Assembly: GCA_014871385.1 (NCBI GenBank)
Contig: CM026426.1
Location: 23,155,070-23,219,069, forward strand
Source: Ceratodon purpureus
Lineage: Eukaryota; Streptophyta; Bryopsida; Pseudoditrichales; Ditrichaceae
Direction of reading: 5' to 3'
Length of the DNA stretch: 64,000 nt
This document shows positions 18,269 to 64,000 of this stretch, piece after piece (position 1 is the first letter of the stretch; every line of letters begins with the position of its first letter). A model generated the notes under the pieces. That model saw only the letters and a program-made list of their open reading frames with translations, had not been told where the DNA came from and made no database searches. Made by a program: the position numbers and the translations under genes.

Positions 18269-20269
18269 TTGGCGTCAGGTGCGCTGGACGCTATGGGAGA
18301 TGTTGTCGAGGATCGCAATTGGAGTCCGGGACCCTCATGCGGGTCAACATTGCAGTCTGATGGCTTCTCCGAATGGGGATTAGAGCAAGATGAGCGGATG
18401 CCGGATCTGTTAGGTGAGTTGGGGTACAACTCCATTCCCCCTTGTGATGTGTATCATTTTCCTACTGTTGATTCTGCCAAGCAAGTCCTTGAGGTAGTGC
18501 AGAAGATAGGGTGCCTCACCGAGAAGCAAGCGAAGACTGCACAAAACAGGATAAGGAAGGCCTGTGAAGATGAATGGGTCTCCTATTATGCTGATTGCTT
18601 CTGGCATGCGAAGATGTACGAGTTGGAGCCACCAAGGGCTGAGTTCAAGGGGGCAGCACCTGGCTTTGTATACGGAGATAGCGAGTCTCGAGAACTGAGC
18701 AGCTTCGAGTATTTCGAGAGGTTCTGGACCCCTCGGATGACAAAGGAAATCACAAGGCAAACGAACCTGTATGCCGAAACGCACTGTGAGAAAATGAAGC
18801 ACAAGCAGGGTGGCTTATGGTGGAAGCCGGTTTGGTACAAAGAGATGAGAGCCTTTCTCGGCATTTGCATCCTAATGGGGATTAAAAAACAGCCCTCCAT
18901 TCAGAGCTACTGGGAAGAGCAGCAGCCGTTTCTTCACTGTAACGTCATTCCAAGAGTCATGAGCAGACAGAGATTTGAAGCTATCCTGAGATGTTTGCAT
19001 CTTGTGCCGAAGACGCGAATTGTCAAAGACCCTAAACAACCTGGTTTTGACGTGTTGGCTAAGACAAGATGGTTGCTGGATGATCTGACGAAGAACTTTC
19101 AAGAACAGTACCACCCCGGAGAACATATTTGTGTGGATGAGATGATGGTACCTTACTCTGGGAGATTTTGCAAGATCAAGCACTACATGAAGGCAAAGCC
19201 AACGCAGTATGGCATCAAGATTTGGGCCTGTGCCTGTTCCGAGACGAAGTACATCTTCAACATGGAAGTTTATTTGGGGAAAGCCGAAAATGAGGACGAC
19301 GACGACCTCAACTGCTCAGTGGGCCATGGCGTGGACATGAGGCTCTGTAAGCCTCTATATTATGTGAACCATACGTGCGTCTTCGACAACTTCTTTACCA
19401 GTCCTCGGTTGCTAAAGTCGCTGCTACGGAAGGGTATCTATGCTGTGGGGACTGTGCGGCAGGGCCGGAAGGGATTTCCAACAAGTCTAAACGTCGCTCA
19501 CAAGGATTGGCCACGTAGTACTCTACAGGTCAGAATGCACAAGAAGTTGCACATGGTCGCAGCGCATTGGGTCGATAGCAAAGGTCTGCACCTGCTGAGT
19601 ACAGGTCCCAACGCATATGCGGCAGGCACAACTGTGAAGCGGTACCTTAGGAGGGCACACACACCGATCCAAAGCTCTCCAATGGCAGTGATATACAACA
19701 AGCACATGGGGAGCGTCGATGGGCAAGACCATATGAGGTCGTCGTACACATGTCAATTGGGTTCACGGAAGTGGTGGCATAGAATCTTTTACTTTGGCTT
19801 GGACAGTACCCTCGTGAATTCCTATATCTGTTCTCGGGAACAAGCTAAGCGACTCGGGAAACGACAGAAGACGCACCTGCAAGTGCACATGGAGATAGCG
19901 ATGGGTTTGATTGGATCTCTCGAGAAGAGTTGGGATGGGTCTCTTGAGAAGAGTAACGCCATCACAAAAAGGTCCGCAAGTTCTCCTACTCAAGGTGGTC
20001 ACCGAAAAGACAACTGTGCCGGCAGTGCAAGACTCGGACTCACCATCAGTGTGTCTTGTGCAAGACCGCCGTTTGCTTGGGCAAATGTTTCGTGGATTAC
20101 CATCTTGACGGGCTCCAATGTTGACTTTGTGCAGCTTTCATGGAGGCCCTTTGCGGGAAAGCTATGGCAGCAGCTTTGGCACCGACCTTCAGGTGACTGT
20201 CCGGGCTCTTCCTCGCAGCGTGCAGTTACTTCATTTCTGTTCAATTTTTGTATTCATCCTGCACCCTAA
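18269..20269 (+). CDS. piggyBac transposase (DDE_Tnp_1_7 type), C-terminus frameshifted
   Basis: Predicted cut-and-paste transposase. Core blocks in order: YFERFWTPRMTKEITRQTN, FLGICILMGIKKQPSI, KTRWLLDDLTKNF, ICVDEMMVPYSGR, CVFDNFFTSPRLL, KGIYAVGTVRQGR and NKHMGSVDGQDHM. The catalytic Asp residues fall at about codons 290, 373 and 484 from 18269; spacings of 83 and 111 are close to those of known piggyBac enzymes. The usual C-terminal cysteine-rich finger is present but in another frame (about 19975-20124: LCRQCK, HHQCVLCKTAVCLGKC, DYH, stop TGA 20122-20124). A one-base-type shift near 19965 therefore separates catalytic core and finger. The first codon, 18269 (TTG), is only the start of the open frame; an upstream exon is expected. 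Confidence 0.92.
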   Translation: MASGALDAMGDVVEDRNWSPGPSCGSTLQSDGFSEWGLEQDERMPDLLGELGYNSIPPCDVYHFPTVDSAKQVLEVVQKIGCLTEKQAKTAQNRIRKACEDEWVSYYADCFWHAKMYELEPPRAEFKGAAPGFVYGDSESRELSSFEYFERFWTPRMTKEITRQTNLYAETHCEKMKHKQGGLWWKPVWYKEMRAFLGICILMGIKKQPSIQSYWEEQQPFLHCNVIPRVMSRQRFEAILRCLHLVPKTRIVKDPKQPGFDVLAKTRWLLDDLTKNFQEQYHPGEHICVDEMMVPYSGRFCKIKHYMKAKPTQYGIKIWACACSETKYIFNMEVYLGKAENEDDDDLNCSVGHGVDMRLCKPLYYVNHTCVFDNFFTSPRLLKSLLRKGIYAVGTVRQGRKGFPTSLNVAHKDWPRSTLQVRMHKKLHMVAAHWVDSKGLHLLSTGPNAYAAGTTVKRYLRRAHTPIQSSPMAVIYNKHMGSVDGQDHMRSSYTCQLGSRKWWHRIFYFGLDSTLVNSYICSREQAKRLGKRQKTHLQVHMEIAMGLIGSLEKSWDGSLEKSNAITKRSASSPTQGGHRKDNCAGSARLGLTISVSCARPPFAWANVSWITILTGSNVDFVQLSWRPFAGKLWQQLWHRPSGDCPGSSSQRAVTSFLFNFCIHPAP

Positions 20270-40183: not shown

Positions 40184-41688
40184 CTATACGATTCGCTCCC
40201 GAGAAATCCGATTGAGATACATCACGTACATATTGACAAATGTTGTATCAACTAAAAACCAAAATACACGGTGCCACCACTTGTGGATTTGTGTTTGACT
40301 GGAGTACGTTCCACGAAGTTGGTCCGCCACATCAACCCCGCGCATGTACTTAGTATATTCCACTAACACCGGAGATGTTGGAATATCCTCTTGAATGGCT
40401 CTGTTACTTCGAGGCACTACAACTTGTGGCTCGTCCGGAGAAGAAATAGAATTTGCGTGCGTAGACAATAAAGGATTGGTCGCTTGTCCTTCCACATGAC
40501 ACATGCCATACCCTGATCGCGATGCATTCTCTACTCTAAGAACCCTTGCGGCGATTTTCTAAAATTCCCCGCTGTCTTCAAATATGTAGGCAACCCAACA
40601 CGGTTAGATTGTGCAGTACCTATTGCATACATACCTATTAATGCTAGTTCTCTAAATAAAAGTACTGATGTAAAATAATTACCCATAACAACACAATGCC
40701 TCCGATTTTGCAGGCCTTCTATCAGTCTCAAAACAACTCTGTGGGGTACACTCGGTCCACCTCAACCTAAACCCACTACAATCTGCTCTTCAATGTCCTG
40801 ACCATAGTAGATATCAAAATTGTAAACGAATTTTGATTTTGAGTCACCATGGCACCAAACCTTGTTGCCTCACTTTTGTGGCTTTTTAGGCATGTACTGT
40901 CTCGCAGGGCAATAGGATCCTTAATATCGGATCATCATCTCATCTATCGTGAGATTTTCACCTAACGCCCACTCCCTCATGCATGCTTCCCTAATATCGT
41001 TCACAAGCCATCTAACTTGTCTCATTTTATCAAATCCAACATGACCTCGCTCAATATGATCATATTGTTGTAGATTGGTAATATGCATACACCGTCTCAA
41101 TTCCCAAAACCGTGAAAGAGTCAATATGTTGGAAAGAATGGGGCAATGGAAGATAGATCCTGCCTTCTCCCAAAATGACTTCATGTTCGGTTGCTTCTTC
41201 ATTCCCATGTAGATGTGGATAGCTAGAAATGCTCTAAAATTTGCCATTGTCATAGGCATCCAATTCCTCCCCCCCATTTTATTTCCAATCACGTTTGTAA
41301 TGCAATTTGCATATCGATTGGTTTCCCTGTGAATTTTCCAGAGTACATTGTAAGGCCCAAAAAATTCCCACAAGTACAATACTGTGGGAATTGCTTGGAA
41401 GAAACGAGCAGTTCCACTAATTCTACAAAAGATACTTGGAATTGGTTCATAAGTGTGATGCTCTTGCCCCCAAAATTCATCTCCATATTCATTCCTTACA
41501 TTGTCCTCAATGACCTCTTCTTGTTCTTCTCCACCCATACCTCCAACGCTTTCATCCTCACTTTCATAATCATAGTTGGAACTTAGTGAATTGTCACTTA
41601 GCTCCGCAACAAAGGCTCTTGCCCTTCTAAACCTCCGTCGCACTACACGCCTTACCACCACATCGGAAATTGCATCATCCCTCCTCAA
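40184..41688 (-). pseudogene. piggyBac transposase 3, inactivated
   Basis: Minus-strand remnant. 41688-40921 encodes the N-terminal half (FRAFLAIHIYMGMKKQPNM, MRQVRWLVNDIREA, NLTIDEMMIRY) and ends at a TAA. The frame continues through two TGA codons to VVMGNYFTSVLLFRELALIG (about 40690) and a TAG. A frameshifted end at 40504-40184 has YTKYMRGVDVADQLRG and QIHKWWHRVFWF. The second catalytic Asp (usual DNxF/DNYF) is Gly here (GNYF); the first and third are kept. It belongs to a lineage different from element 1. No terminal repeats or TTAA pair were found around it. Confidence 0.88.
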
Positions 41689-43151: not shown

Positions 43152-44627
43152 ATGCCGAAGAACAAGAAGCAGAAGAATGTGGGGGAATGGGCGGACAAAT
43201 ACGATGACAAACCGAGCCTACGTTGCAAGGATTATATTACGGAATTCATCGTGGAATTTTACCAGGAGAACACCCTTGTTTCATTAAACAGTTGTTACAT
43301 TCGGTATGAGGAAGATGGGCCCAAGGAATTCAAGTCAGAGATGGAGGTAAAGATTATGGATCATTTGATGCATCCGCACTGGAAATCCGAGAGACAAAAG
43401 CCCGGTTACCTTCATTTCGTGGAACAGCGTGCACATGATGCGTTATGGAATGCTCGTGACGTTGTGTCTAAGTATGCAAGAGAGCAAAGGGGGGGAGTCG
43501 AGGCCTTCAAAGATAATATTTCAAAGGCAGATTGCTTCCGGAGACTAATGGCGCCACTGAGCTCAAGAAAGCATCGACGGATCTCTGTTAAATGGTGGGA
43601 TTCTCCAATTGGGATGGAGACGGCGGCCGACTTACGTAGACGGCATTTGACTATCTTGTCAGACTACGCAATTTTCTATTACTTGGACAAGGAAGTTCAG
43701 AGAGGTGGTTATGCTACCATACGTAGGGTTCGTATTGAGGGAAACTCGGAAATCCCACCATTCTGGGAGTTTGCTGAGAAACGGCCGCTCAATTGGTCTA
43801 TGAGGCCGGAATTGGCACGTGTGGACGACAACAACGAATCTCTTGCAATAAGGATTCCCCATCCTGGTGTCATCCGCTTCATGGCCATTCATCAGAGGGA
43901 ACATGTCGGATTCATGTATTGGTGGAACGGTGGGACCCTTCGAGCCATGCTACAGAGGGACAATGAGGCCCCGGATGACCTCTACATCCACTACATCTTC
44001 GATAGGAATCCAGAAGACAGTCTGATTCAAGGAAAGCGTCTCCGACTTTTCCGAAGTAAGCATACAGAGCTTGCTTGGGCATTGTGTAACATCATAGATG
44101 ATGTGCACAAATGCGGTTACCTCCACAATGACTTGTCGCCGGACAACATTCTACTTCACTTTCCGGAAGATGAGTCCAAGATCTACATCGGGGTTTGTGA
44201 TTGGGGCTTGATGACGAAAATAGAGGAGAACAGAAGGTCGCCTTGGGTTTTTGAGAGTGCTTATTAGATGGAGGAGACTATGAGGAGGCGATACAGGGTG
44301 GATTCTCGCGTGGTATACGTACACAAGGAAAGCCAAGATATTAGAATCGTTCCAGATTTGACGGCTGCATCGGAGGATTTTGCAACCGCAAAGATTGCGG
44401 CAAAGATCAACGGCGGCAACATGTGCACAGCATACCACGAAGCGGAGCCAGTAGAAACACGCCATTTCGAGAGGATCGGAGACCTCGCTACAGTTTTCGA
44501 AAGTTATCTTGATAGAGTTTGTCAAAACAACAGAGGAAGAGTGGGTGGACTCGGACATCTTATTAACCGTTTCAGAGATAGACACAAGTGGCCGACTCCC
44601 AAGGAGCACTACCGCGTGGGGTACTGA
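43152..44627 (+). CDS. Protein-kinase-like protein with internal TAG
   Basis: An intronless frame of 491 codons (stop TGA 44625-44627) is interrupted only by TAG at 44265-44267 (codon 372). The N-terminal ~170 residues (MPKNKKQKNVGEWADKY...) are unrecognised. The kinase-like part follows: a glycine-loop-like GGYATIRRV (about residue 195), IIDDVHKCGYLHNDLSPDN (catalytic-loop Asp about 327, Asn about 332) and CDWG in place of DFG. HNDLSPDN replaces the usual HRD motif, and I cannot find a clear ATP-anchoring Lys in strand 3. The activation segment then meets the TAG, after which the frame continues with METMRRR-like residues, RVVYVHKESQD and a helical C-terminus. It is either a recent nonsense mutant or a read-through/truncated kinase-like protein. 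A TATA box and GC-rich promoter lie upstream. Confidence 0.7.
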
Positions 44628-51780: not shown

Positions 51781-51992
51781 AAGTTTTTTTTTTCTTTTTT
51801 TTTCCTTTTTTCTTTTTTAAATATTGGGTTGCTCTTATACCCGTATTTGATTAGAATTTATTTTCTGGCTAATAAATAAGGTTTCTATCACAATGATTTA
51901 GACAGAAGTTGCACTCTTCAGTTATGTAGGCTTGCAAATTAATTTGCACATTACTTGAAAAAGTGTGCAAGCAATTAAAGGGATATTTAGGT

Positions 51993-52020
51993 AATTCTGG
52001 ACAAAAAAAAGTCCAGAATT
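51993..52020. repeat. Perfect hairpin with A8 loop
   Basis: AATTCTGGAC, eight A, then GTCCAGAATT: a 10-bp perfect stem. It is near the 3' side of the HAD gene cluster; role unknown. Confidence 0.8.
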
Positions 52021-52567
52021 CAAAAATGACCAATGCGAACTCAGCGGACCGCCGATGGATGGAGTCCACAGATGAACAGTGTCATTGTACATGAATACCA
52101 CAGAATATAGAATGCAAAACTGGACATCGAGATGTGCATGGGCGGAATTTGCCAGTGATGGATATATGAACCCGAAGATTGCGACATGTGATGCAGAATA
52201 AGAGTTACAATGAATACTTTAAAGAATATCATGTTGATTCAAGTAATGAAATGTACAATACAGAGTCGGCGACCCGCCGATAATAGAACACGCTAAACTA
52301 ACTAGTCTCGTAGCACTTTGAGTCATGAAGTCCTACAACATTAAGTCTACACCCAACACTATGTACCAAGTTGACGTAAATCCTATCACATTATAACCTA
52401 CTCGGAAAACTATTTCCCTGAAAGCATAGCCGTAAGGTCAATGAGTAAATCATATATTTGAAGGCCGCACAAACGGGTCGACCAAGTCGGCGGGCAGCCG
52501 ATGGAAGGTGTTCTGTTGGTCAGGAGGAGGGAAGAAGTGCAAGTTGGAGGCGAAAAAGCCGCCTAAC

Positions 52568-53245
52568 TCAGTCCCAGCAAACTTCAGTCCAGTCCACTCG
52601 TGCACGTCCAAACTTTCTCGCAGCTTCAATTGCCCAGTGCACTTGCCCCGGCCTACACGCCTGCGCCATATACTCCGGTACAGATCCGAACTTGTGCAAG
52701 GGATAAACCAGAGGAAGGATATCTGTAGCAATGTTAGGTATAACGCCGTCATCGTTCGGAAAGTTTAGATGACCCTGAAAAGGCCAAGGAATGTAGCACA
52801 TACAGTTTGGTGTCCTCCTCAATGACCTCGGGTCAACATCCACAAATAGCACCTGATCTAGTTTGCAGACGTTTCTAGACTGTACCTTGGAGCAAACTTG
52901 ACCTAACGTCTTATAACTCCAGGGGAAATTCTCCCGGTCGATAAGGTCACTTTTGCTATACACGAAGGACAGCCTCTCCATTACACCGGCCGGCAGAATA
53001 TGTGTGAGTAAAGGCTTCAGTTCTCCCAAGGGCATCTTCGACCACAGACCAACATGGAAATGCAAGAAAAGCATGTCGAAAAGCTTCTTCAAACCTGGGC
53101 GCTTCACTACATTCCGATGCGTATCCCATGGCAAAGCCTCTGTCCTGGGATCCACATAGCAGAGAAGGCCATTGACGCATAGGACAATACATTTCTTGAC
53201 ATGATGAGGTGGACCGTGAAGGCATTTGAAATAAAACGAGGAACC
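52568..53245 (-). CDS. HAD/FCP1-like protein C (226 codons in last exon)
   Basis: The exon starts after a CAG acceptor at 53245 and stops with TGA at 52568-52570. Motif I region: KKCIVLCVNGLLCYVDP, where the nucleophile Asp of the HAD phosphatase DxDGT-type motif is Cys and the second Asp is Asn. It continues with RPGLKKLFDMLFLHFHVGLW, KLDQVLFVDVDPRSLR (motif III-like) and WPFQGHLNF. It is related to the two upstream genes, but with a changed catalytic site it is unlikely to be a canonical phosphatase. The 5' exon was not identified. A GTCGGC palindrome lies about 85 bp upstream of the exon. Confidence 0.65.
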   Translation of the reverse strand, partial: GSSFYFKCLHGPPHHVKKCIVLCVNGLLCYVDPRTEALPWDTHRNVVKRPGLKKLFDMLFLHFHVGLWSKMPLGELKPLLTHILPAGVMERLSFVYSKSDLIDRENFPWSYKTLGQVCSKVQSRNVCKLDQVLFVDVDPRSLRRTPNCMCYIPWPFQGHLNFPNDDGVIPNIATDILPLVYPLHKFGSVPEYMAQACRPGQVHWAIEAARKFGRARVDWTEVCWD

Positions 53246-53555
53246 CTGAAGAATATGAAATGCAATCAGTGAAGGAAATCAAGGAACAGGACGAAGTATA
53301 TGAAAGAAATGGACTATATTCAAAGTCCTCGGCGACCCGCCGACAAAACGATGCATTGAAGAAACCTCAAAGGTAAATGTGCAGCAAGGGAGATGTTCAT
53401 GCATGGATCTACAAAAAGAAGTACCGAACTGCAGCACTGGAAACAAATGTGTGGTGCAGGGAAGTTCAGAAAGGGAACAGTCTTAGTGTATTTAACTAAA
53501 GAGTGTAGAGTATCATATGTGATTTTTAAAACAAGTGGCGCCGCTGGTATAGGCC

Positions 53556-54653
53556 CTAATCAGTCGGCTGCCCGCCGACGATGGAACTACCAGGGGCCTC
53601 CGTAGGACAAGGTAAATTCACAAACCAAGATCCAGGATCACCCGGGACGTCAAACCCGCATGCATGAGAAGGAATAACCTCCCTATACTTCTGGTATTCG
53701 CGAGATCCTGGAAAAAGACGTGGCTTCCCCACGCTAGAATTCTTCCTACAATACTCCTGGACATCCAATCCAGACTGCTTAAGTCCTGCAAGGAATGGTG
53801 TAACTACCCTAGTTAAATAGGGATTGGGGGTGGGTTGAGGTTCTTTGCACTCTGCAGAGTCCCAGAAAAAGGAATTAGGATGGACAGCGCTAAATGGATG
53901 ATTAAGTACATTCCTATACGGCCGGTCGTCTACCAGTAGGGTATTCTGGACAGTGGCACCTGATTGAGCCAGTAGCCTAGTGTCGCAAAAAAGTCTATCC
54001 AGACGCTTCAACAAGTACTCCCGTTTCCCATTCAGATTAGTCCGTGTTGAGATATCACACCAGAATCCTGGAAGGCGTCTGTAATTGCTCCTGAGCAAAG
54101 GATGAATGGCTAACAGCTTCTGGAAGTGACGATCGAGATTCTTTTCAGAAACCGTGGACCAAAAGACTACCTCAAAATTCGCCGTGCAGAACTCTAGAAA
54201 TGAAAGAAGTCCTGGTTTAGCCCGGATATGAATTTTTGTCTTCAGATCATCACTGATATACCCGTGGTGCTCCGCGATGAGCAATCCCTTAATGTCAAGA
54301 ACAAGGTAGTATCGTTGGAGAGGTACCTCAATATTACGCGCAATAATATCAGTGCTGACACTGACGGAATCATCGCGCGGGGAACCGGTGCGCGGGATCG
54401 CGACGTTGGTCTCGACGAACGAGGTGGAAGCCATCGCACACCGGCCAGAGCTATGTGCAGCAGACAGCGTCGGCGGCCCGCCGACTGGATAGTCGTACTC
54501 GTCCTCCCCATCACTTTCATTCTCGGCTTCCGCTCCCGGAGACTCTTCTCTGTGAGCATCACCATCAGGAGATGTTGGGTACTCCTCCAAGAGCATACTA
54601 AGAAGGGAAGGTCCCTGGTGCACTTCAATTTCAGCGTCATCCTCCAGTGACTC
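53556..54653 (-). CDS. HAD/FCP1-like (NLI-interacting-factor family) protein B
   Basis: The exon begins after TTTTCAG (54653) and runs 366 codons to TGA. An acidic N-terminal part includes EDEYDYPVGGPPTLS, where VGGPPT is encoded by a palindrome copy (54469). The FCP1-like domain follows: RYYLVLDIKGLLIAEHHG, FLEFCTANFEVVFWSTVSEK and NTLLVDDRPYRNVLNHPF. Motif I has DIKG instead of DxDG, so the second catalytic Asp is replaced. The last residues, SIVGGQPTD and the stop, are again formed by a palindrome copy (53563). The upstream exon is not identified. Confidence 0.72.
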   Translation of the reverse strand, partial: ESLEDDAEIEVHQGPSLLSMLLEEYPTSPDGDAHREESPGAEAENESDGEDEYDYPVGGPPTLSAAHSSGRCAMASTSFVETNVAIPRTGSPRDDSVSVSTDIIARNIEVPLQRYYLVLDIKGLLIAEHHGYISDDLKTKIHIRAKPGLLSFLEFCTANFEVVFWSTVSEKNLDRHFQKLLAIHPLLRSNYRRLPGFWCDISTRTNLNGKREYLLKRLDRLFCDTRLLAQSGATVQNTLLVDDRPYRNVLNHPFSAVHPNSFFWDSAECKEPQPTPNPYLTRVVTPFLAGLKQSGLDVQEYCRKNSSVGKPRLFPGSREYQKYREVIPSHACGFDVPGDPGSWFVNLPCPTEAPGSSIVGGQPTD

Positions 54654-54910
54654 CTGAAAAATGAAGGACAAATTCCAAGAAAACATGGGTGATCAATCGC
54701 ATGCTCACAATTCATACTTGCTCTAGTGTACAAATGGAGACACAATAAGACACCCACAACAGAATACACAGTCTCGACACTGAGTTCCGTTCTCATATAT
54801 TTAAAAGGAGGAAAACTTTATTTACTGAAAAAGTCTAAATACATGAAGATCCCATCGGCGGGCAGCCGACTGAATCATGTGCATGCTCTCTAAAACAGTT
54901 TCTACATCTA

Positions 54911-55680
54911 CTATGTTCTCTTTCGTTTAGGGCAATCAATGTGTGGAGAAAAGAGATTATAAGCTTCATCCCCCGGAAACAGACGACGCTGACCGAATTC
55001 GGAGTGTTTCTGGCAGTACTCGAGCACGGGGAGTTTAGATTCTTTCAAACTGGTAAGCCAAGGAATCAATTCTCCAACCTGATAATTCCTCTTATTTTCC
55101 GACTCCTTCGACTCGAAGGTATATGGTGTAGGGTGCACAGCGTTCCAAGGAGTGTTTGCGACATTCTTATAAGGGGAATCATCAACCAAGAGAGTGTTAA
55201 TTGAAGACGCCCCCGTCCCCTTCAGCCCGTCATCGAGGTCAAAGAGGGTCTGGAGTCTCTTCAAATAAAACTCCCTACTAGCCTTATGTACGCAAGTCTC
55301 GCAGAAACTCTGGTCGAACTTGTAGCGCACTTCGGCATCTAGACGAGGACAGCGCTGCTGCAACACTGTCCACAGAATCTCGAACCTCTTTTCCTGAACG
55401 CAGCTCCAGAAGACCACCTCGAAATTGTCCAGGCAGAACTCTAGGAACTTCTCTAAACCTGGTCTAAGTTTAGTATTCCACCTAGTACCCTGCTTCGTCT
55501 GGACTAATAGCAGGCCGTTAATATCCAGAACCAGAAAGTACCTCAGCACTGGATCGTGTACCTGAGTACCAGCCTGTTCGGGGGCTATGTGAAGTGAATT
55601 CAGAGGTGGAAGTCCTAGCTCCAGAATTGCACTGGGTCTATCTTCGTGAAGTTTTCCATGGACTTCCTTGTCCGCGGACT
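54911..55680 (-). CDS. HAD/FCP1-like (NLI-interacting-factor family) protein A
   Basis: The exon starts after CACTCCAG at 55680 (phase needs one base from an upstream exon) and ends with TAG at 54911-54913. Domain: LRYFLVLDINGLLLVQTKQG, FLEFCLDNFEVVFWSCVQEK, INTLLVDDSPYKNVANTPW, then a conserved tail (LEYCQKHSEFGQRRLFPG) shared with protein B, and a basic end PKRKRT, a possible nuclear signal. Motif I DING lacks the second Asp of active HAD phosphatases. A palindrome copy lies 52 bp upstream of the exon. The first exon was not found. Confidence 0.75.
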
Positions 55681-55912
55681 CTGGAGTGACAGAAAACGAA
55701 GCAGAGGACAAACGTGACGGTTAGGATGACGGTCGGCGGACAGCCGACTTGCAAGCAACATTATTTGGAAAAAGGGAAAGCGTACAACTTGGCATTTACC
55801 GAAAATTTATTCATATTTGGCAGTACAAACATCTAACACAATCCTAGCGCCCGATCACTACACTAAATTATCAATGCAGGCATTTAAAAGATGGACTGGG
55901 CCACCGCCAAAT

Positions 55913-58900
55913 TCACTGTCCTCCACCTTTGTGCTTCTTCGGCCTAGGCTCCCGTTTGGATGCCCGCGGAGGTGACAGAACGTCCTCTGGAGCGTCCACA
56001 TTTTTGGGACTCATGAGCAGATCCCCAGATGTGCCCTTCTTGGAGGAAGTCTTCTTCGAAGCAGCCTTCCGTTTGCCCTTCCCAGAGGACTCCTCCCCTT
56101 CCTGAACCCCTGAGGAATCACGGGATAAGTTACCACAAGAGAGGAATCCTGCGCAGTACCATCGGTCTTACTTCTCTTCATTGATCGTGTCTTGACCAGA
56201 GGGTTTTCATCCGGGCCAATCATCCGAGCTGCGCCCTTCACACCTTGAGTGACGAATGCGATTGACTTCCCTGTCAACTTGGTCTTGGCAGAGGGGTTAG
56301 ATGAGGTTTGCTCGTCTGCCGTCGGCTGCCCGCCGACAGCAGCAGGAGGAACATGCCCTTCAATGCTCACTGCAGGCTCCTGGGTTGGCTTCTGGACACG
56401 GAGAACCACTTCATCGTCAGGCCTCGATGCTAGAGGAACCTGCATCTTCTTTGGACGCCCCGCCTGGTCTAAATCACGTTCTGGCTCGGCGGGAGGAGTA
56501 TCCTGCTCTTGAAATGTAGGAGAAATAATACCGAAGCTGAGGGAGTCAGTTCCGGTCTCCCGTAGAACTTGCGACAGCGGTGGGTTCACGTAACGAGGAT
56601 TCGATTCTTCCAGTGGTACCACGTCGGGTTCTGGTTCATAGTCTATGTCCTGCGTGTATCTCTCCTCTACCTCTGCATCTCCAGTTGGAATGCGAGCCTC
56701 AGCTTGGTCGTCCTCGTTTCTTGGCTGTTCCTCAGCATCTCCAGCTTCATCTTCAACGTCAGGGTCGGGTACATCTGGTGGCTCCTCGTCGACATCGTCG
56801 TCGGAGTCCAGATAACTCTGTGAGCGAACCCCCGCAGTCTTCCCCGAACCCATACATCCACCCTTCCCGACCAAAAGGGCCTCCTTCGCATTCACACCGA
56901 AGTCGGCAGCCGTGAGAGTGGCTGTCCTGCCTCTAGCAGAGGCGGGGACAGACGGCCCGGCCCCAGACTGCGTGGTCTGAACTGGAGCTTGGACGGGCAC
57001 GTTATAAACGCCCGGAATGAACGTCATATTCCGAACCCGACAGTGCGCTTCGTATCTCTCTTCCTCGGTACGCACGATCTCAATTACAGTCAAATGGTTT
57101 TTCTGCAGCAGAACAAGACGAAACGGTTAAGGAAATCTTCTACCCAAGAAACACGAAGGATTTAATGAGCGTCGGCTACCCGCCGACGATCGGTGAGCAA
57201 ACAGGGAAGGCACCAGAAGAGACAGCAGTGACTTACCAGAGCGAGGGCCGTGACGTTCCCCCCTCCCCAGCAATTGATCACCCGAACGTCCTCAAGCTGC
57301 ATCGTTTTCTCCAGAAGAGATTGGAGGAAAGAGTAACTAGCGTGGCAGTGTCCATTTGACCAATCCTCCCCAAGATGATCTTCTCCTTCGTCCACATAGG
57401 GAGGAAGCGGACGTTTCAAACCAGTGAAGTCCGAGAAGGTATTCCATGCATCCCCGGGCGTTGTTTTTGGATACATAACGGACACATGAACCTTGGGTCT
57501 AGAGTCAATGAGAGAACTCCTTTGAAACCCGGCGGAACTATTAGGGAAGTATTGCATAGTATGAACCGTCCACGAACTACTCGTCAGCCTTGACACGCCT
57601 TGAAGAATGTGATTGGACTCAGCATCGAGTAGCCACAAGGATGGGGTGACAAGCTTATTCACCTTAATTGTTTCTCCCTCCCCATCCACCTGAATGACCT
57701 CCTCCTCCACCTCACGGTGAATCCTGTCAGCGACAGTTATAACGTGTTGTTGTCGCATGTTAGGCATCTCCTTTCCCGCTGGATCGTAGCCAAAGACTAC
57801 GAACATCTCATACTGCGCCTTGTCCAAGGAGAATGCTCCGCGAACGTCAAGAGCTGTGCACACTTCACCTAGGTCCTGTGCAATCCGGGCATCGAACTGT
57901 ACAGACGACTGCGAAGACTGGTCCACATCCGACTTCTAGTACTTTTGCATAATGTCTTTGAAGAATTCTGGTGTTGGCCCGTGCGACGGCGTGAGCGGAT
58001 GATTCCGTCCCTTAAGCCACTCCTTCCCCTCAGGACTATCTTCCAAGTCAGCCCGAATATTACTAATCATTGTATCATTGAACCCCTTCTCGACTTCAAG
58101 GGAATTCCAGTCATCCATGCTCCACTCAATATGCTTCCCAGTCCCTGGTTTCTTCAGTGCAAAGCCCCTGTAAATACACATGAGCTCGTTTCGGACAACA
58201 TATTCGTACTTCACACGAAAACACCAATTGTCCAAGGATATTCCGTCCCGTTGAACCACCTCTTTCCCAGTGACCTTGAGGTACACTTTAAGGTCGAGAA
58301 CTTCCTTGGCCAGCCTCTTGCATTCGTGGTCCCGAAGACCGATCACGTACTGCATGTCGTTGAGTGTTATGTCCCAGCGGGCTGGCTTTGGGGGAAATCC
58401 TGGTTTCAAACCGTCCTCCCCGATGATCCTCCCCTCCTCCCAGGCGTTGAACACCAGTTGCCACTCGTTGTATGTTTCGTCAGACACAAAGACTATGGGC
58501 AGCTTGAAGGTTTGGGACGTAGGGGACTTTCCGAGAATCGGACTGAGGTACTCCTTGCAGAACTCCTGCAAGGAAGAAGAAAATGACATTGATAAATAAA
58601 TCCCACTTCTACAATACGGAGAACCACTGGAGCATCGGCGGGCCGCCGACGACTTTCAACTACATGTAAACAACAGGAAAAGAGGAAGATGTGAATTACC
58701 TTCCATGCGCTGAAGTCATCTTTCTTGTTGATCCTCCCCCGCTCGATCCATTTGGCGCGCATCTTCGCCAGCTGGGACCTGAAACTTACTTCGGCGACTT
58801 TATCCTTCACCTCGATGTTTAATGCGTTAGAGACCTTATTGAGGGTATCCTTGTCATCAGCATATACAGGAATGATATCGTGGTTAAGGTAATACTGCCG

Positions 58901-60653
58901 CATAGGAGAGTCCAGTGGTTCCTTCTCTCCCAGTTCTCGACAAGCCTCAAACGTGTGCTGGCCCCCAATAATGTACCAATGGATGAGCTCATCTTCATAC
59001 CAAGGTATCTGCGACGTTGTGCCGTCATCCAATGTACGTGAATACTTGATATTTAGGGCTGGCATAGGTCGAAGAAGTCCTTCCAAGCCTTTAAGCTTAA
59101 TCTCGCCCGTCACTGGATCCTTTACTCTGGGGTCACCACTCATAGGAAGGCAGTACAGCTCGGGATTCTTCCGGATTGCTCCAAGTCCTTTGTAGAAAAG
59201 ACTTATCTGATCCTGCCTCTTCCTAAATATCGCTCTGTACTTAAATTCGTCAGGAGCTATGTGTATCCTGTTATATGGAATCTGACAAGGAAGGGCACGT
59301 TGCCCGTTGGGGAAGCAGTGCCCAAGTCCCTCCTCCAACGTCTGGTACATAGCAAGGACGTCGGTGTCCTTTGTTTTCGAAGTGAGATTGTTTGCGTGCA
59401 TGAGAGCTTCCGCCACGGTCTGCTTTTTCTCTTCCTTCTTCCCACCTTTCTTCTGTCTCCCACCCTCGCCCTCAGCAGCCGCTGCCTTTCCCTTCTTCCT
59501 TCTCGGTGACTCCCCTGTCGCATGTGTCTCTCCGGTCTCGGGGGTGACTGTACCAGTGCCCGCTTCTACAGCAGACTTGCGGCCGCCTCTTTTCTTTGCT
59601 AAAGGCTTAACCGAGTTCTTCGTCTTCTCTTCCATCGCTTTGTCCCCGAGCGTATCAATCACGTCGAGTATCTGTTCAACAGCTATGTTCCTGCCCCTGC
59701 CCCAAGTAGCCGCATCCTGTACTTCTTTAGAGCACAAGCCGTCCATGCACTTCTCAACCGGAATTACAACCGCGAAGCAGTCCACTGGTGTGCCCTCCGC
59801 GACAGGAACCGATGCAAACACCAAGGACACGTTGCCGTTATCCTCGCATTCCCTGGCTCCAATAATCTCAAATCTTGGTCCATCCGCCATTTGCTTCTGA
59901 CCTATTTTGGTCACGAAGCCCAGCGACGTGGGAGTGTCAGGCCAGGTGATGCCCCACTCCGTTATCTTCGAATCAGCGAGGAATGTCACCCTCAGTGTCA
60001 AGCCCCGTGCTCGTATTTGTACTTCAGAATCAACAACCTTGTCACAGAGCCACCGTAACCCATTTGGTTTTGCGGTGGAGTCGACCATCGCCCTGCAAAA
60101 TCAAAATCACAAGATTAGACCATGAGATTCGCACTCCATCGGCGGACAGCCGACGGGGCGGATGGACACGCCCTCCCCATCGGCGGACAGCCGACGGGGG
60201 GAATAACCCATGTGAGAAAATAGAAAGGGGTGGTGTCGGCGGTCAGCCGACGGGAGGAACAACCCCATGCGAGAGAACACAAAACATGAAGGGCAAAAGA
60301 AGGGGTGGCGTCGGCGGACAGCCGACGGGAGGGACAAACCCATGCGAGAAAACAGAAACATGAAGGACAAAAGAAGGAGTGGCGTCGGCGGACAGCCGAC
60401 GGGAAGGACAAACCCATGCGAGAAAACGGAAACATGAAGGACAAAAGAAGGGGTGGCGTCGGCGGACAGCCGACGGGAGGAACAAATCCATGCGAGAAAA
60501 CGGAAACATGAAGGACAAAAGAAGGAATGGCGTCGGCGGACAGCCGACGGGAGGGACAAACCCATGCGAGAAAACGGAAACATGAAGGACTCAAGAAGGG
60601 GAGCGTCGGCGGACAGCCGACTGGACAACTTACCCACTCTCGGAGGCTGCCAT
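55913..60653 (-). CDS. ParB-like / DNA-methyltransferase-like fusion protein, five exons
   Basis: Minus strand. Exons 60653-60634, 60092-58700, 58565-57237, 57102-56134 and 56101-55913. All borders are GT-AG and lengths sum to 1300 codons with every junction in phase, which supports the model strongly. The first exon encodes MAASESG. A Lys-rich region (KKGKAAAAEGEGGRQKKGG) is followed by a ParB/sulfiredoxin-like segment with IIGGQHTFEACRELGE (about residue 383). The C-terminal half has a SAM-binding-like motif, VINCWGGGNVTALAL (about 899), then VIEIVRTEEERYEAHCRV, as in permuted N6/N4 DNA methyltransferases. An acidic and a Lys-rich tail follow. I cannot see a DPPY/DPPW motif, so activity is doubtful. 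TAG at 57936-57938 (codon 681) breaks the frame. Palindromes lie in introns 1, 2 and 3 and in exon 4 (AVGGQPTAD). Confidence 0.65.
60138..60621. repeat. Tandem array, 74-bp unit built on the palindrome
   Basis: Palindrome copies at 60235, 60310, 60384, 60458, 60532 and 60605 are spaced 75, 74, 74, 74 and 73 bp, with conserved spacers containing ACCCATGCGAGAAAAC and ACATGAAGGAC. Shorter-spaced copies at 60138 and 60179 lie at one end. The array sits in intron 1 of the ParB/methyltransferase-like gene and is open in several frames on both strands, giving spurious ORFs. Confidence 0.93.
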
Positions 60654-61662
60654 GGCGTCGGCGGATGGCCTTTCACCGTCGGCGGATGACCTTCGAACAG
60701 CAGACGACGCGCGCGGGTGAAGGAGCCGACGCCCTCAACCCTAGCAGCCGACGCAGAAAAACCTAGCAGCCGACGCGACCTCTGCGGAGCGCTGAGAAGA
60801 GGACAAAAGAGAGCTGAAAAAGAGAAGGCTGGAAATGAGGAGGAAATGTCGGGAGTGGCGGGTGTATACCCTGCAGACCCCCACTTCCCGAGACTGAATC
60901 GTCACGCCCGATGGGTCATGACGTATGGCTATGTACATACCATCCATGCATGGATGGTCATCCCTAACATCCGTCCCATCACGCCACGTAGGATGATGAT
61001 GGGACGTCTTTTGACTTTTTTTCAATCCGTCACCAAGTCATGATGGCGTGGGCATGTGATGTGACAGCTGCTCCAATCGCCACGTTCAAATTTGTAATAA
61101 TGAACTAACATTGTTGTGTGACGGCGGGGTATCTCGCCGCCATGATGGGATCTTGATTTGTCCAAGGCGCGCAAAATTGAATTCGATTGTGGCGCCAATT
61201 TGTACTCCTGGGAATTCATAACTAACCCCCCGTCAGATGCGCATGCTTCATTCTGTTTCTGTCATTGCACTTTCAATTCCCTCTGAGAGTGCTCCTCACG
61301 CACACGTTTCCTGAGAGGACCGATATTATTCCCGCATGTGCTTAACTGTCCCGCACCTTCTGTTGCCGTTTCTGTTGTCTTTGTCTATCGTTTCTGATTG
61401 GACGGTTGAGGGGAGTCTCTGATTGGACAGGTTAGGGACATCAAACTGCTTCTCAACTAAGGTCCCCCTGCAATTTCTGTCGGCGGACGTGTCCGTCATC
61501 GTCGGCGGATGCTATTCTGTGCACACTCCGAGTTGTACGATCCGCGTCGGCTGCCCGCCGAGTCGTCTTCGTTGTCGGCGGATACATTTTTACTCCGTCA
61601 GTGGGGACACATCTCGTCGACCCTGTCGGCTGTCCGCCGACGAGGTCTTCATCTTTTATCCA
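60654..61662. other. Divergent intergenic region
   Basis: Separates the minus-strand ParB/methyltransferase-like gene from the plus-strand gene at 61663. It includes half palindromes (GTCGGCGGAT) on both sides, full copies at 61546 and 61625, and motif-free ORFs. It probably contains promoters for both directions; no clear TATA box was seen. Confidence 0.45.
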
Positions 61663-62471
61663 ATGGAAGTAGAGCCGATCCAGACGTTTCTAAGGAATGG
61701 CCGATCAGGGCGGTGGAAGGTTAAAAAGGGCGTTGTCGTGGCCCTTACTCATTCAGGGCTCTATTATGCAGGCAGGGCAGTGATCCAACGTGTTGTAGAA
61801 TTTGATCCTATAGTGGTGGTGGTAAAAGTGATTGAGGTTTCAGACAGCATGGAAATGAATATACCATTTCCGGATGAGGGTGTGAAGTCCTTGAGCAACT
61901 TGCTTAGGACGCATGATATTGTGGGAGGCGGCCGACCTCAGGCCTTTCGGAGAGGTGGAAGACGATGACATCAAGGCCGTCGGCTGCCCGCCGACGGATG
62001 TTGAAGAAGATGTCAAGCCCGTTCAAGAATTCCTGGACCTCGCAGAGCAGATGGAAGTTGCGCTCCTCGAGGAATCCGGAGGCTCAAAGCGTTGTGTAGC
62101 CGCTGGAGTCATTATGGAGTGCTCTCCTAAAGGAACGTGGGAGGGGTTTCTTGATTCCTCACAGCTTCTTCTAATAGTGAGAGTGTCGTCCGTCAATCCA
62201 GAATTCTCTGAAACACCTGCTTTCTGCGAGTTACCGGATGTGTTAACGATCGGGTGTGCTGTGGGGGCGATTGGTACTTTGGAGTGGATACAAGGTATGT
62301 CCAATTGTGAACGGCGTGTTGGCTGGCACATGTCCCGTCGGCTGCCCGCCGACGGAACCTCACTTGGGGAACGACAATGAAGAAATTGATGAAAGCAACT
62401 CCGCTTTGTCTGAGCAGGATCTGGGGACTAGGTCTCCAATGAATATCAGCAGTGACGACGATTGTGTCTAA
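61663..62471 (+). pseudogene. DUF8039-like accessory gene, frameshifted
   Basis: The ATG at 61663 starts MEVEPIQTFLRNGRSGRWK, then VVVVKVIEVSDSMEMNIPF and PDEGVKSLSNLLRTHDIV. A one-base-type frameshift near 61922 leads to WEAADLRPFGEVEDDDIKAV and GCPPTDVEEDV; the palindrome at 61979 encodes VGCPPTD. A second similar block follows: LLLIVRVSSVNPEFSETP, DVLTIGCAVGAIGTLEW. A probable donor (GTATGT, 62295) opens a short intron with a palindrome (62337); an acidic end (EIDESNSALSEQDLGT) closes at TAA 62469-62471. The pattern DEGV...W..ADLRP is shared with exon 4 of the En/Spm-like gene at 46.6 kb. Confidence 0.45.
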
Positions 62472-62949
62472 ACAAGGGGAATCCGACGTAGGAAAATAGA
62501 TGATCATTGTTGGGGTCCGGATTCCGGGGACCTCGGGTACTCCTTCCACTCCAGATGCTTCTTATCCTGACCGCCACCTCTGGAGAAATCGCTAGTGTCG
62601 AACTTCTTAATGATGATCTATCAGTCCGTGTGTAGAGCAATGATTCAAGTATGTTACCGGACGAGGCATGTGATGATGAAGTCCTAGGGGATACAGAGGT
62701 TGGGGTTCTCTTCGTCTCTGAAGACGATCATCTGCAGATGACAACTCTCAGATGGCGTCTGACTCACACTCGGTTAGAAGGGGGTCACCTTCTCTCTGAT
62801 ATAATTACTTACTGCTCGAGAATTTAGCAGACGCCGACGCGGACGATGGTCTGGATGGTGTCCCGAAGAATGCCTATCGATCGGGTGCGGAGGAAAGTTC
62901 GCGAAAAAGATGACGTCTCTTCCACTAAGCTTCGTCGAATGGTTGTCCC
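62472..62949. other. Between decayed genes; probable coding relic
   Basis: Contains acidic, open but interrupted frames (e.g. LPDEACDDEVLGDTEVG) that may be degenerate linker sequence between the two flanking pseudogenes. No motif. Confidence 0.3.
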
Positions 62950-64000
62950 TGCTGAATGCCGCTTAGTGAGCTCAAAGCGGGTGTTGCAAGGACCGAATGT
63001 TGCCAGACTTTTAGATGGGAAGATACTGTGCGTATTCGTCGTAGATTTTACGCAACAACATTCGAGGCGAGGCGAGAGATGTCCTTTGCTGTGCAGGGCA
63101 CTTACATACTGTACCCGGCAAGCGGAAGCTCTATGTTACTCTTGCGAACGTTGACGTATGTGAAAGTGGCGTGGTATATCATTCACGGAGTATCGAAATC
63201 CGCCGTACTACATGCTACAAGGCTTCGGCCCGAAGTGTCGTGTCAATGGGAGTTACGGAAATTCCGGTGTACATCGTCCCCAGATTCACACAATCCAGGC
63301 CCGCGCGACGTTGACCACTATCGTTAATGAGAATGCCGACCAAATGCCCAATGAGTTTCGGATGATTGGCAAGAAGAGAGTGGCCGCGCTCAAAGTACTC
63401 CCGTCTGCGATGAACTGGAATCACATGCGCGAAATGGCCAACGCCGTAAGTTCCTCCTCATCTTCTTCACTTTGGATAGTTTACTGAATTATAGTGATTA
63501 CTATCGTCGGCTGCCCGCCGACTGGATGACGAACTTCCCAACTGATCGACCTCACTCTGTGCTATTCAGGTCAATGAGCAGTGCAACGCGAACCTGATTC
63601 GAGTCCTCCGTTAGTCGCATGAGGAAGGAGTACTTCCGCAACGTTGAGGTCAAGGCAGTAGGAAGTAATTCCAAAGTGCACTGAGTGTGACTTCCTCGTT
63701 GAACTCATTGCCAAGTATCCAAGAGGGTCGGACGAGTGGCAGAGCTTGACAGAGGATAGGATCAGGCATTTGAAACTATCAGCGAGCTTGTCGCAACATT
63801 TATTACGGATGGACAACCCAATCTATACAGAGTCCTACTGAGTTCCTAGCCTATTCAACATGATAAGATGGACACATCGAAAACAGCGATCCCCCGCATG
63901 CAACGTATCACGAAGGCTACGGCAGGGCTTGGTCAAATTCCGATTTCCTGTACTGGAATGCTGACTCACGGTCACGGAGATGGCGCCTACGCACACTATG
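62950..64000 (+). pseudogene. Transposase-like protein of the DUF7869 type, decayed, partial at window edge
   Basis: Segments in order on the plus strand but in changing frames: FRWEDTVRIRRRFYATTFEA, VAWYIIHGVSKSA (frameshift near 63205), YYMLQGFGPKC, GNSGVHRPQ, NENADQMPNEFRMIGKKRV, KVLPSAMNWNHMREMANA, then a donor at 63446. The intron has a palindrome (63506) and the acceptor is at 63569. VNEQCNANLIRVLR, TAG (63612-63614), IPKCTECDFLVELIAKYP, IRHLKLSASLSQHLL, TGA, then HDKMDTSKTAIPRMQRITK and THGHGDGAYAHY follow to the window end. The order SK-YY-GN.G-MP-LPS, CxxC, D.MD and HGHG fits widespread eukaryotic DUF7869-containing transposon-like proteins. The family name is from memory; the decay is directly visible. 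Confidence 0.7.

Follow-up and report, generated by a model that had tools for sequence, protein, structure and literature searches.

A stretch of 64,000 nucleotides from the moss Ceratodon purpureus (contig CM026426.1, positions 23,155,070 to 23,219,069; hereafter the window) carries a short palindrome, GTCGGC-N5-GCCGAC, many times over in its last 12 kb, which raises the question of whether the palindrome is a mobile unit in its own right, a recognition site for a protein or the mark of one large element. Our analysis showed that it belongs to a DNA transposon, that it lies near one end of ~380-bp derivatives with a half-site near the other end, and that its stems are conserved.

Palindromes and copies of the element

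Exact palindromes were present at 15 sites in the window (53563-63522), and none was detected in 100 dinucleotide shuffles. Using the consensus TCGGCKGNCMGCCGA, 20 perfect and 4 one-mismatch sites were found in the last 12 kb, with zero two-mismatch sites, 2 three-mismatch sites (1.05 expected from shuffles) and 4 four-mismatch sites (8.06 expected). The first 52 kb contained no site with zero or one mismatch and one with two. The original prediction had placed about 25 copies in 11.5 kb and none in the preceding 52 kb; the span (52041-63522) was exact and the absence upstream was borne out, but the full set numbers 24.

The palindrome consists of two half-sites, TCGGC[G/T]G, around a free centre base. 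The usual loops comprise GGNCA, its reverse complement TGNCC and two symmetric forms, GGNCC and TGNCA; other loops (GACCC and TACCC) occur at a few sites. A conserved 6-bp stem and a freely varying loop had been proposed. The stem is indeed the more constrained part, but its supposed outermost G-C pair is broken in 9 of the 24 window sites, site 52041 has a stem mismatch, and the loop mostly keeps to the four usual forms. Outside the palindromes, the half-site GTCGGCGG occurred 5 times in the last 12 kb against 0.22 expected.

A search of the genome (362,488,568 bases, with the window on a 110.5-Mb contig) detected 2858 exact palindromes, compared to 3 for a reversed control pattern. The 50 sites listed, which reach 5.73 Mb into the first contig, comprised 49 in three copies of one element (14, 18 and 17, the last incomplete) and 1 in a miniature inverted-repeat transposable element (MITE). 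The three clusters repeat the spacing of the palindromes in the window, and site density among these 50 follows copies of the window's gene cluster. These results indicated that the palindrome is not a free-living repeat and belongs to a transposon.

Alignment of the window with three dispersed copies (c1, c2 and c3) demonstrated 95.5-96.7% identity and a sharp common left end at 51978. The three full copies share a right end, have lengths of 15,622, 15,748 and 15,761 bp and carry 28-31 palindromes each. The element ends are imperfect ~25-bp terminal inverted repeats (TIRs), AAGGGATATTTAGGTAATTCTGGAC and AAGGGGTATTTAAGTAATTATGGAC, and 4-bp target duplications (TTAT, ATAA and ACAT) flank all three full copies. 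The inverted ends, the duplications and the sharp common limits of dispersed copies establish the element as a 15.6-15.8 kb DNA transposon. Pairwise differences of only 0.9-3.6% among the four copies, within the region that the window covers, mark the element as recent. The 10 kb to the right of the window (stretch L125) is N throughout, and the right end of the window copy is not visible.

The element-end pattern, with up to 2 mismatches allowed, was found 599 times in the genome (299 + 300) and 0 times for the control. Among 100 ends listed and counted by eye, 19 pairs lay 15.5-15.95 kb apart on C1-C6 and were scored as full-length copies by distance and end type, three of these being read through; a further 28 ends, including one variant, made up a third type. 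Several wider pairs, among them three with ends 20-25 kb apart (C2:22336604-22356740, C3:5859656-5882554 and C5:3455241-3480215), are probably copies with nested insertions. Near the right end, each unit of a 100-bp tandem repeat (L136:6084-6378) contains one variant palindrome, either TCGGCTGGTAGCCGA or TCGGCTGATAGCCGA.

The original prediction had also suggested a mobile palindrome, and the four copies were compared for empty sites. Outside a tandem array (Table 1), 15 of the 16 window sites were at the same internal position in every copy read, in agreement with the alternative suggestion that the palindrome is a mark of one large element. The sixteenth, site 53329, is in the window copy and c1 and is missing from c2 and c3. 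Since c2 and c3 are mutual nearest relatives and differ here from the other two copies by 19 bp that are edged by CG on both sides, the simplest reading is a deletion. Across the four copies there was no insertion-type presence or absence outside the array, and the suggestion of a mobile palindrome was not upheld. The array and its two neighbours hold 8 sites in the window copy and 5, 7 and 7 in c1, c2 and c3, respectively, and c3 is without one 41-bp stretch between two array palindromes. This variation is of the kind that unequal recombination may produce.

Short derivatives and constraint on the stems

Twenty of the 28 third-type ends were fetched, and 18 were the left ends of MITEs of 371-383 bp; the other two (L152 and L157) were not such MITEs. 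Duplications of 4 bp flank 16 of the 18, while L147 and L148 show 5 bp and have identical flanks, which marks them as one duplicated locus. When one MITE was compared with one full copy, similarity at an E value of <= 0.02 was confined to the palindrome and to the outermost 43-45 bp at either end. The MITE palindrome is at +57/58 and is mostly GTCGGC[G/T]GGCCGCCGAC, with both 5-bp stems intact in 15 of 18 elements and the entire 6-bp arms in 14 of them. At the opposite end, ~65 bp in, 14 of the 18 have an exact half-site, GTCGGCGGAT; its match to the half-sites in the promoter of the full element covers 12 of 12 bases (E value of 0.71) and is too short for significance alone. By their shared ends and duplication length, the 371-383-bp elements are assigned as MITEs of the large element, the interior being nonhomologous in the pair compared. 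Retention of the palindrome where little else is retained points to a cis-acting role for it in the mobile element.

The variability of stems and loops was examined in the MITEs and in full copies. Among the 18 MITEs, 5 of 216 alignment cells varied in the stems (6-bp arms), compared to 7 of 90 in the loops, 4 of 179 in the half-site and 226 of 5411 in the rest; at CpG positions, 5 of 126 cells varied in the stems versus 16 of 89 elsewhere. The element ends varied in 9 of 900 cells, the left end being fixed by the search. For the full element, five sites were compared across 23-24 copies: three were close to the left end, one lay between frames and one in a likely intron, with copy L223 left out at this last site because it was unaligned. 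Varying cells numbered 3 of 1189 in the stems (5-bp arms), 42 of 595 in the loops and 448 of 27480 in the rest, with Fisher p values for stem constraint of 7e-4 at CpG and 2e-3 at other positions. Common descent has less influence on a per-column count of distinct alternative bases, and by this measure there were 11 in 25 loop columns against 4.3 expected (p = 0.005). Overall, constraint on the stems was supported, and the loops change, if anything, faster than their surroundings.

Frequent loop changes among the copies were between GGGCA and TGTCA and between TGTCC and GGTCC. At two sites (L186-L225, 23-24 copies), two loop bases had often changed together, giving unpaired versus paired K.M forms. 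Hairpin repair, in which a K.M mismatch is converted to a pair, may fit two of the sites, at positions 2878 and 6659 of the element, where the events are few; the MITEs show the reverse form too.

Genes of the element and possible roles of the palindrome

The features of the window copy are collected in Table 1. Within the phosphatase B frame, the two palindromes translate as VGGPPT and VGGQPTD, and a NIF relative at 97% retains both exonic palindromes. In exon 2 of the big minus-strand gene, the reading frame is interrupted by a stop in the window copy and open in copy c2. The full first exon gave a model with a predicted local distance difference test (pLDDT) score of 52.8 and zero matches at an E value of <= 0.001; only a shorter part, residues 219-463, yielded a usable model, by which a ParB/sulfiredoxin-type fold is moderately supported for the large protein. 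The ParB family has an arginine-containing cytidine triphosphate (CTP) motif, GxRRxRA. It is absent here, the invariant residues at that place being G376, Q377, H378, T379 and C383 in 22 aligned sequences.

Protein databases contained 21 relatives of the first exon, 36-89% identical over the alignment. A relative at 88% retains the intronic palindrome in translation (SRRRPADA). In the relative at 36% (P0008), read-through of a likely intron gives the peptide IGCPPM in a similar place, compatible with a distant family having the palindrome too; among the tails of the other first-exon relatives, none had a palindrome-compatible peptide. Pfam gave no name for the family in 22 members scanned, NCBIfam none for 3 family members and the candidate transposase, and a search of viral and prokaryotic contigs with the ParB-like alignment detected zero relatives. 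The plus-strand gene continues beyond the window into a DUF7869 part (E value of 3.1e-44), the one domain match obtained, by which its product is a candidate transposase; compared by sequence with solved structures, it had zero matches at an E value of <= 1.

Table 1. Features of the transposon copy in the window
Position	Strand	Feature	Basis or remark
51978..64000	+	Transposon copy, ends beyond right edge of window	Aligned with three dispersed copies
51978..52002	+	Left TIR AAGGGATATTTAGGTAATTCTGGAC	Matches inverted right ends of other copies
51993..52020		Perfect inverted repeat AATTCTGGAC-A8-GTCCAGAATT at left end	Sequence
52041..52055		Subterminal palindrome, one stem mismatch	Same mismatch in 21/24 copies
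52266..52280		Palindrome	
52487..52501		Palindrome	
52568..53278	-	NIF-type phosphatase A (reading frame)	PF03031, E 4.5e-5
53329..53343		Palindrome	Missing from copies c2 and c3
53556..54692	-	NIF-type phosphatase B (reading frame)	PF03031, E 5.5e-8
53564..53578		Palindrome within phosphatase B frame	
54470..54484		Palindrome within phosphatase B frame	
54855..54869		Palindrome between frames	Loop polymorphic among copies, stem invariant
54911..55720	-	NIF-type phosphatase C (reading frame)	PF03031, E 4.6e-13
55733..55747		Palindrome between frames	
56011..57104	-	Big gene, third large exon	Limits by eye
56322..56336		Exonic palindrome	Translated VGGQPT
57172..57186		Palindrome, likely intron	
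57237..58566	-	Big gene, exon 2	Limits by eye
58635..58649		Palindrome, likely intron	Loop polymorphic among copies
58700..60088	-	Big gene, exon 1	3' limit by eye; residues 219-463, ParB/sulfiredoxin-like model
60139..60194		Two palindromes (60139, 60180)	Upstream of big minus-strand gene
60225..60625		74-bp tandem array, 5.4 units	Palindromes 60236, 60311, 60385, 60459, 60533, 60606
60657..60688	+	Two half-sites GTCGGCGGATG	Spacing 21 bp
60724..60776		Three half-sites AGCCGACGC	Spacing 22 bp, inside 22-bp tandem repeat
61423..64000	+	Candidate transposase gene	Start from open frame; frames broken in window copy
61479..61582	+	Half-sites GTCGGCGG at 61479, 61501, 61574	Upstream of or at start of plus-strand gene
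61547..61561		Palindrome	
61626..61640		Palindrome	
61980..61994		Exonic palindrome	Translated VGCPPT
62338..62352		Palindrome	In open frame of copy c2 (VGCPPT)
63507..63521		Palindrome	

A dyad centred on one base is the usual site shape for a protein dimer. On balance, we lean towards reading the palindrome as a putative dyad, TCGGCKGNCMGCCGA, that a protein of the element would bind in transposition. The element would be a large cut-and-paste transposon with a dyad of 15-17 bp, made up of half-sites TCGGCKG with one free base between them, and a dimeric element protein would bind this dyad; the DUF7869 candidate transposase and the ParB-fold protein are equal candidates for the putative binder, and the original prediction had also named the locally encoded ParB-like protein as one that could recognise the palindrome. 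Dyads near the ends would help to recognise and pair the ends, while the internal dyads, every few hundred bases, would hold the 15.7-kb element together and would also regulate the divergent promoter (60.7-61.5 kb) with its half-sites spaced by 21-22 bp, or two helical turns. End recognition is our best guess in view of the retention of the palindrome in the MITEs and of a parallel with piggyBac in the available part of the source (PMC11707139). A second use, in looping, bridging or gene control, is suggested by the many internal sites and by the half-site arrays at the divergent promoter.

Several observations weigh against a binding site for transposition. Of 24 full copies, 21 carry a mismatch in the stem of the leftmost site (+64), and, counted from the right end, two irregular sites (~220 and ~370-385 bp) precede the first regular one (~495-510 bp). 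The palindrome stems are broken in 3 of the 18 MITEs, and the full palindrome is at one MITE end only. The exon and intron sites are absent from the MITEs, which implies that most sites serve something besides end recognition. As the copies are related, the cells compared for stem constraint are not independent, and the per-column count detected 3 distinct alternative bases in 50 stem columns where 8.6 were expected (p = 0.028), a weaker constraint.

The asymmetric dyad is mostly in its + form to the left of the divergent promoter (exceptions at 53564, 56322 and 57172) and in its - form at 5 of 5 window sites to the right; in copy c2, past the window limit, there is one + form dyad near the right end. 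No reading fully accounts for this switch of orientation at the divergent promoter.

Of the other explanations, the one that survives best is that host transcription-factor sites were taken up as enhancers, which we consider unlikely. GCCGAC and GCCGCC are core motifs of the plant AP2/ERF factors (DREB and ERF); the half-site has GCCGA and CCGCC-type cores, and half-sites are grouped at the divergent promoter. Such factors would leave the fixed 1-bp dyad spacing and the retention in short MITEs unexplained, and palindromes are also found in exons and introns. Next, and unlikely as well, are operators that serve only the element's own transcription and have no role in transposition. The 21-22 bp phasing of the promoter arrays and the degenerate outermost sites of the full element would suit operators, and near-end retention in the 371-383-bp MITEs argues against them.

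A bolder and rather improbable case is modelled on bacterial partition. Bacterial ParB, which binds the parS palindrome by a helix-turn-helix, spreads or bridges from parS, and a ParB-fold protein might likewise load at the palindromes and spread or bridge for cohesion, copy marking or the control of silencing. The transposon would then have captured a ParB-type protein and some thirty parS-like sites; the protein would coat or bridge the element and mark it as self, with the near-end site serving full elements and MITEs through the transposase or the same protein. The many dyad sites on one DNA element are shared with the bacterial system, as the predicted ParB-type fold would be, whereas the setting here is a eukaryotic transposon and the motif residues are unlike.

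RNA hairpins in element transcripts, with a role in splicing, stability or recoding, are very improbable: many sites are within frames or likely introns and the stems are conserved, but orientation relative to the gene is not uniform, sites also occur in MITEs and upstream of genes, and single half-sites, which cannot fold, are enriched as well. That an independently mobile palindrome invaded the region is scarcely credible, as the variable flanks and the spread over exons, likely introns and spacers are set against identical positions outside the array in four dispersed copies, the confinement of all 50 listed sites to the element family and one dispersed absence that resembles a 19-bp deletion with CG edges.

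Relation to known elements

The dyad binding site favoured here would lie in an element that resembles known transposons in several respects. The Sola superfamily is described, in the portion of the source available, as having 4-bp target duplications, TIRs and a size that may exceed 15 kb, and as known in the moss Physcomitrella (PMC10741241). The present element shares the 4-bp duplications, a TIR (imperfect, ~25 bp against a criterion of 11 bp or more) and size (15.6-15.8 kb against 2 to >15 kb). It differs in its phosphatase and ParB-fold accessory genes and its ~30 dyads, of which that portion of PMC10741241 makes no mention. The element fits Sola by duplication length, TIRs, size and moss host and is a candidate member of this superfamily, whose transposases are of the DDD type.

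The target duplication of piggyBac is TTAA. Membership of piggyBac was rejected, as the 4-bp duplications of the element are varied and no DDE_Tnp_1_7 match was found among the element proteins scanned. In piggyBac, both ends have the same 19-bp palindrome, to which the transposase dimer attaches through two cysteine-rich domains, according to the part of the source available (PMC11707139). A short palindrome in the ends is thus common to piggyBac/piggyBat, where it is bound by a dimer, and to the present element, where the site is putative; in the former, palindromes are at the ends, whereas here they are throughout the element, with the outermost ones degenerate. Two piggyBac-type transposase frames lie in the window outside the element, at 18269-20269 (+) and 40921-41688 (-) (DDE_Tnp_1_7, E values of 1.8e-84 and 5.8e-20), as does a protein-kinase-like frame at 43152-44267 (+), which scored 23.7 against a cutoff of 23.1 bits for PK_Tyr_Ser-Thr and under its own cutoff for Pkinase.

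Rickettsia palindromic elements are short palindromic repeats present in many places, and the same is reported of Volvox organelle DNA in the available part of the source (PMC2670323). The palindrome here differs from both in being without a sign of self-movement. A viral or prokaryotic origin was considered and rejected: at least 120 viral-contig stretches contain the palindrome, and the 80 listed hold one each, a chance-like pattern scored without a control. Palindrome-derived peptides, used as a probe for other loci, gave zero matches at an E value of <= 10 among 895 candidates, and scans of the window with Rfam (gathering scores) and for tRNAs were empty. The six exact motif forms did not occur in any of the 5.39 million papers covered, and titles and abstract starts gave no description of the element, which is not proof that none exists.

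Subterminal repeats and MITEs are familiar from many DNA transposons, and the protein-binding repeats of transposons are usually near the ends. The 371-383-bp elements share their ends and duplication length with the large element, as MITEs do with an autonomous partner, and no difference was seen besides the retained palindrome and half-site. What is unusual is a dyad spread through the whole element, together with a likely ParB-type fold in a eukaryotic transposon. The U and V sex chromosomes of C. purpureus are >100 Mb each and together ~30% of 360 Mb, in the part of the source available (PMC8000587). The window places a plant DNA transposon with phosphatase genes and a likely ParB-type fold on a probable moss sex chromosome. 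Some thirty repeats of one dyad, in promoters as well as in exons and likely introns, bear on the role of internal binding sites in a giant transposon of 15.7 kb.

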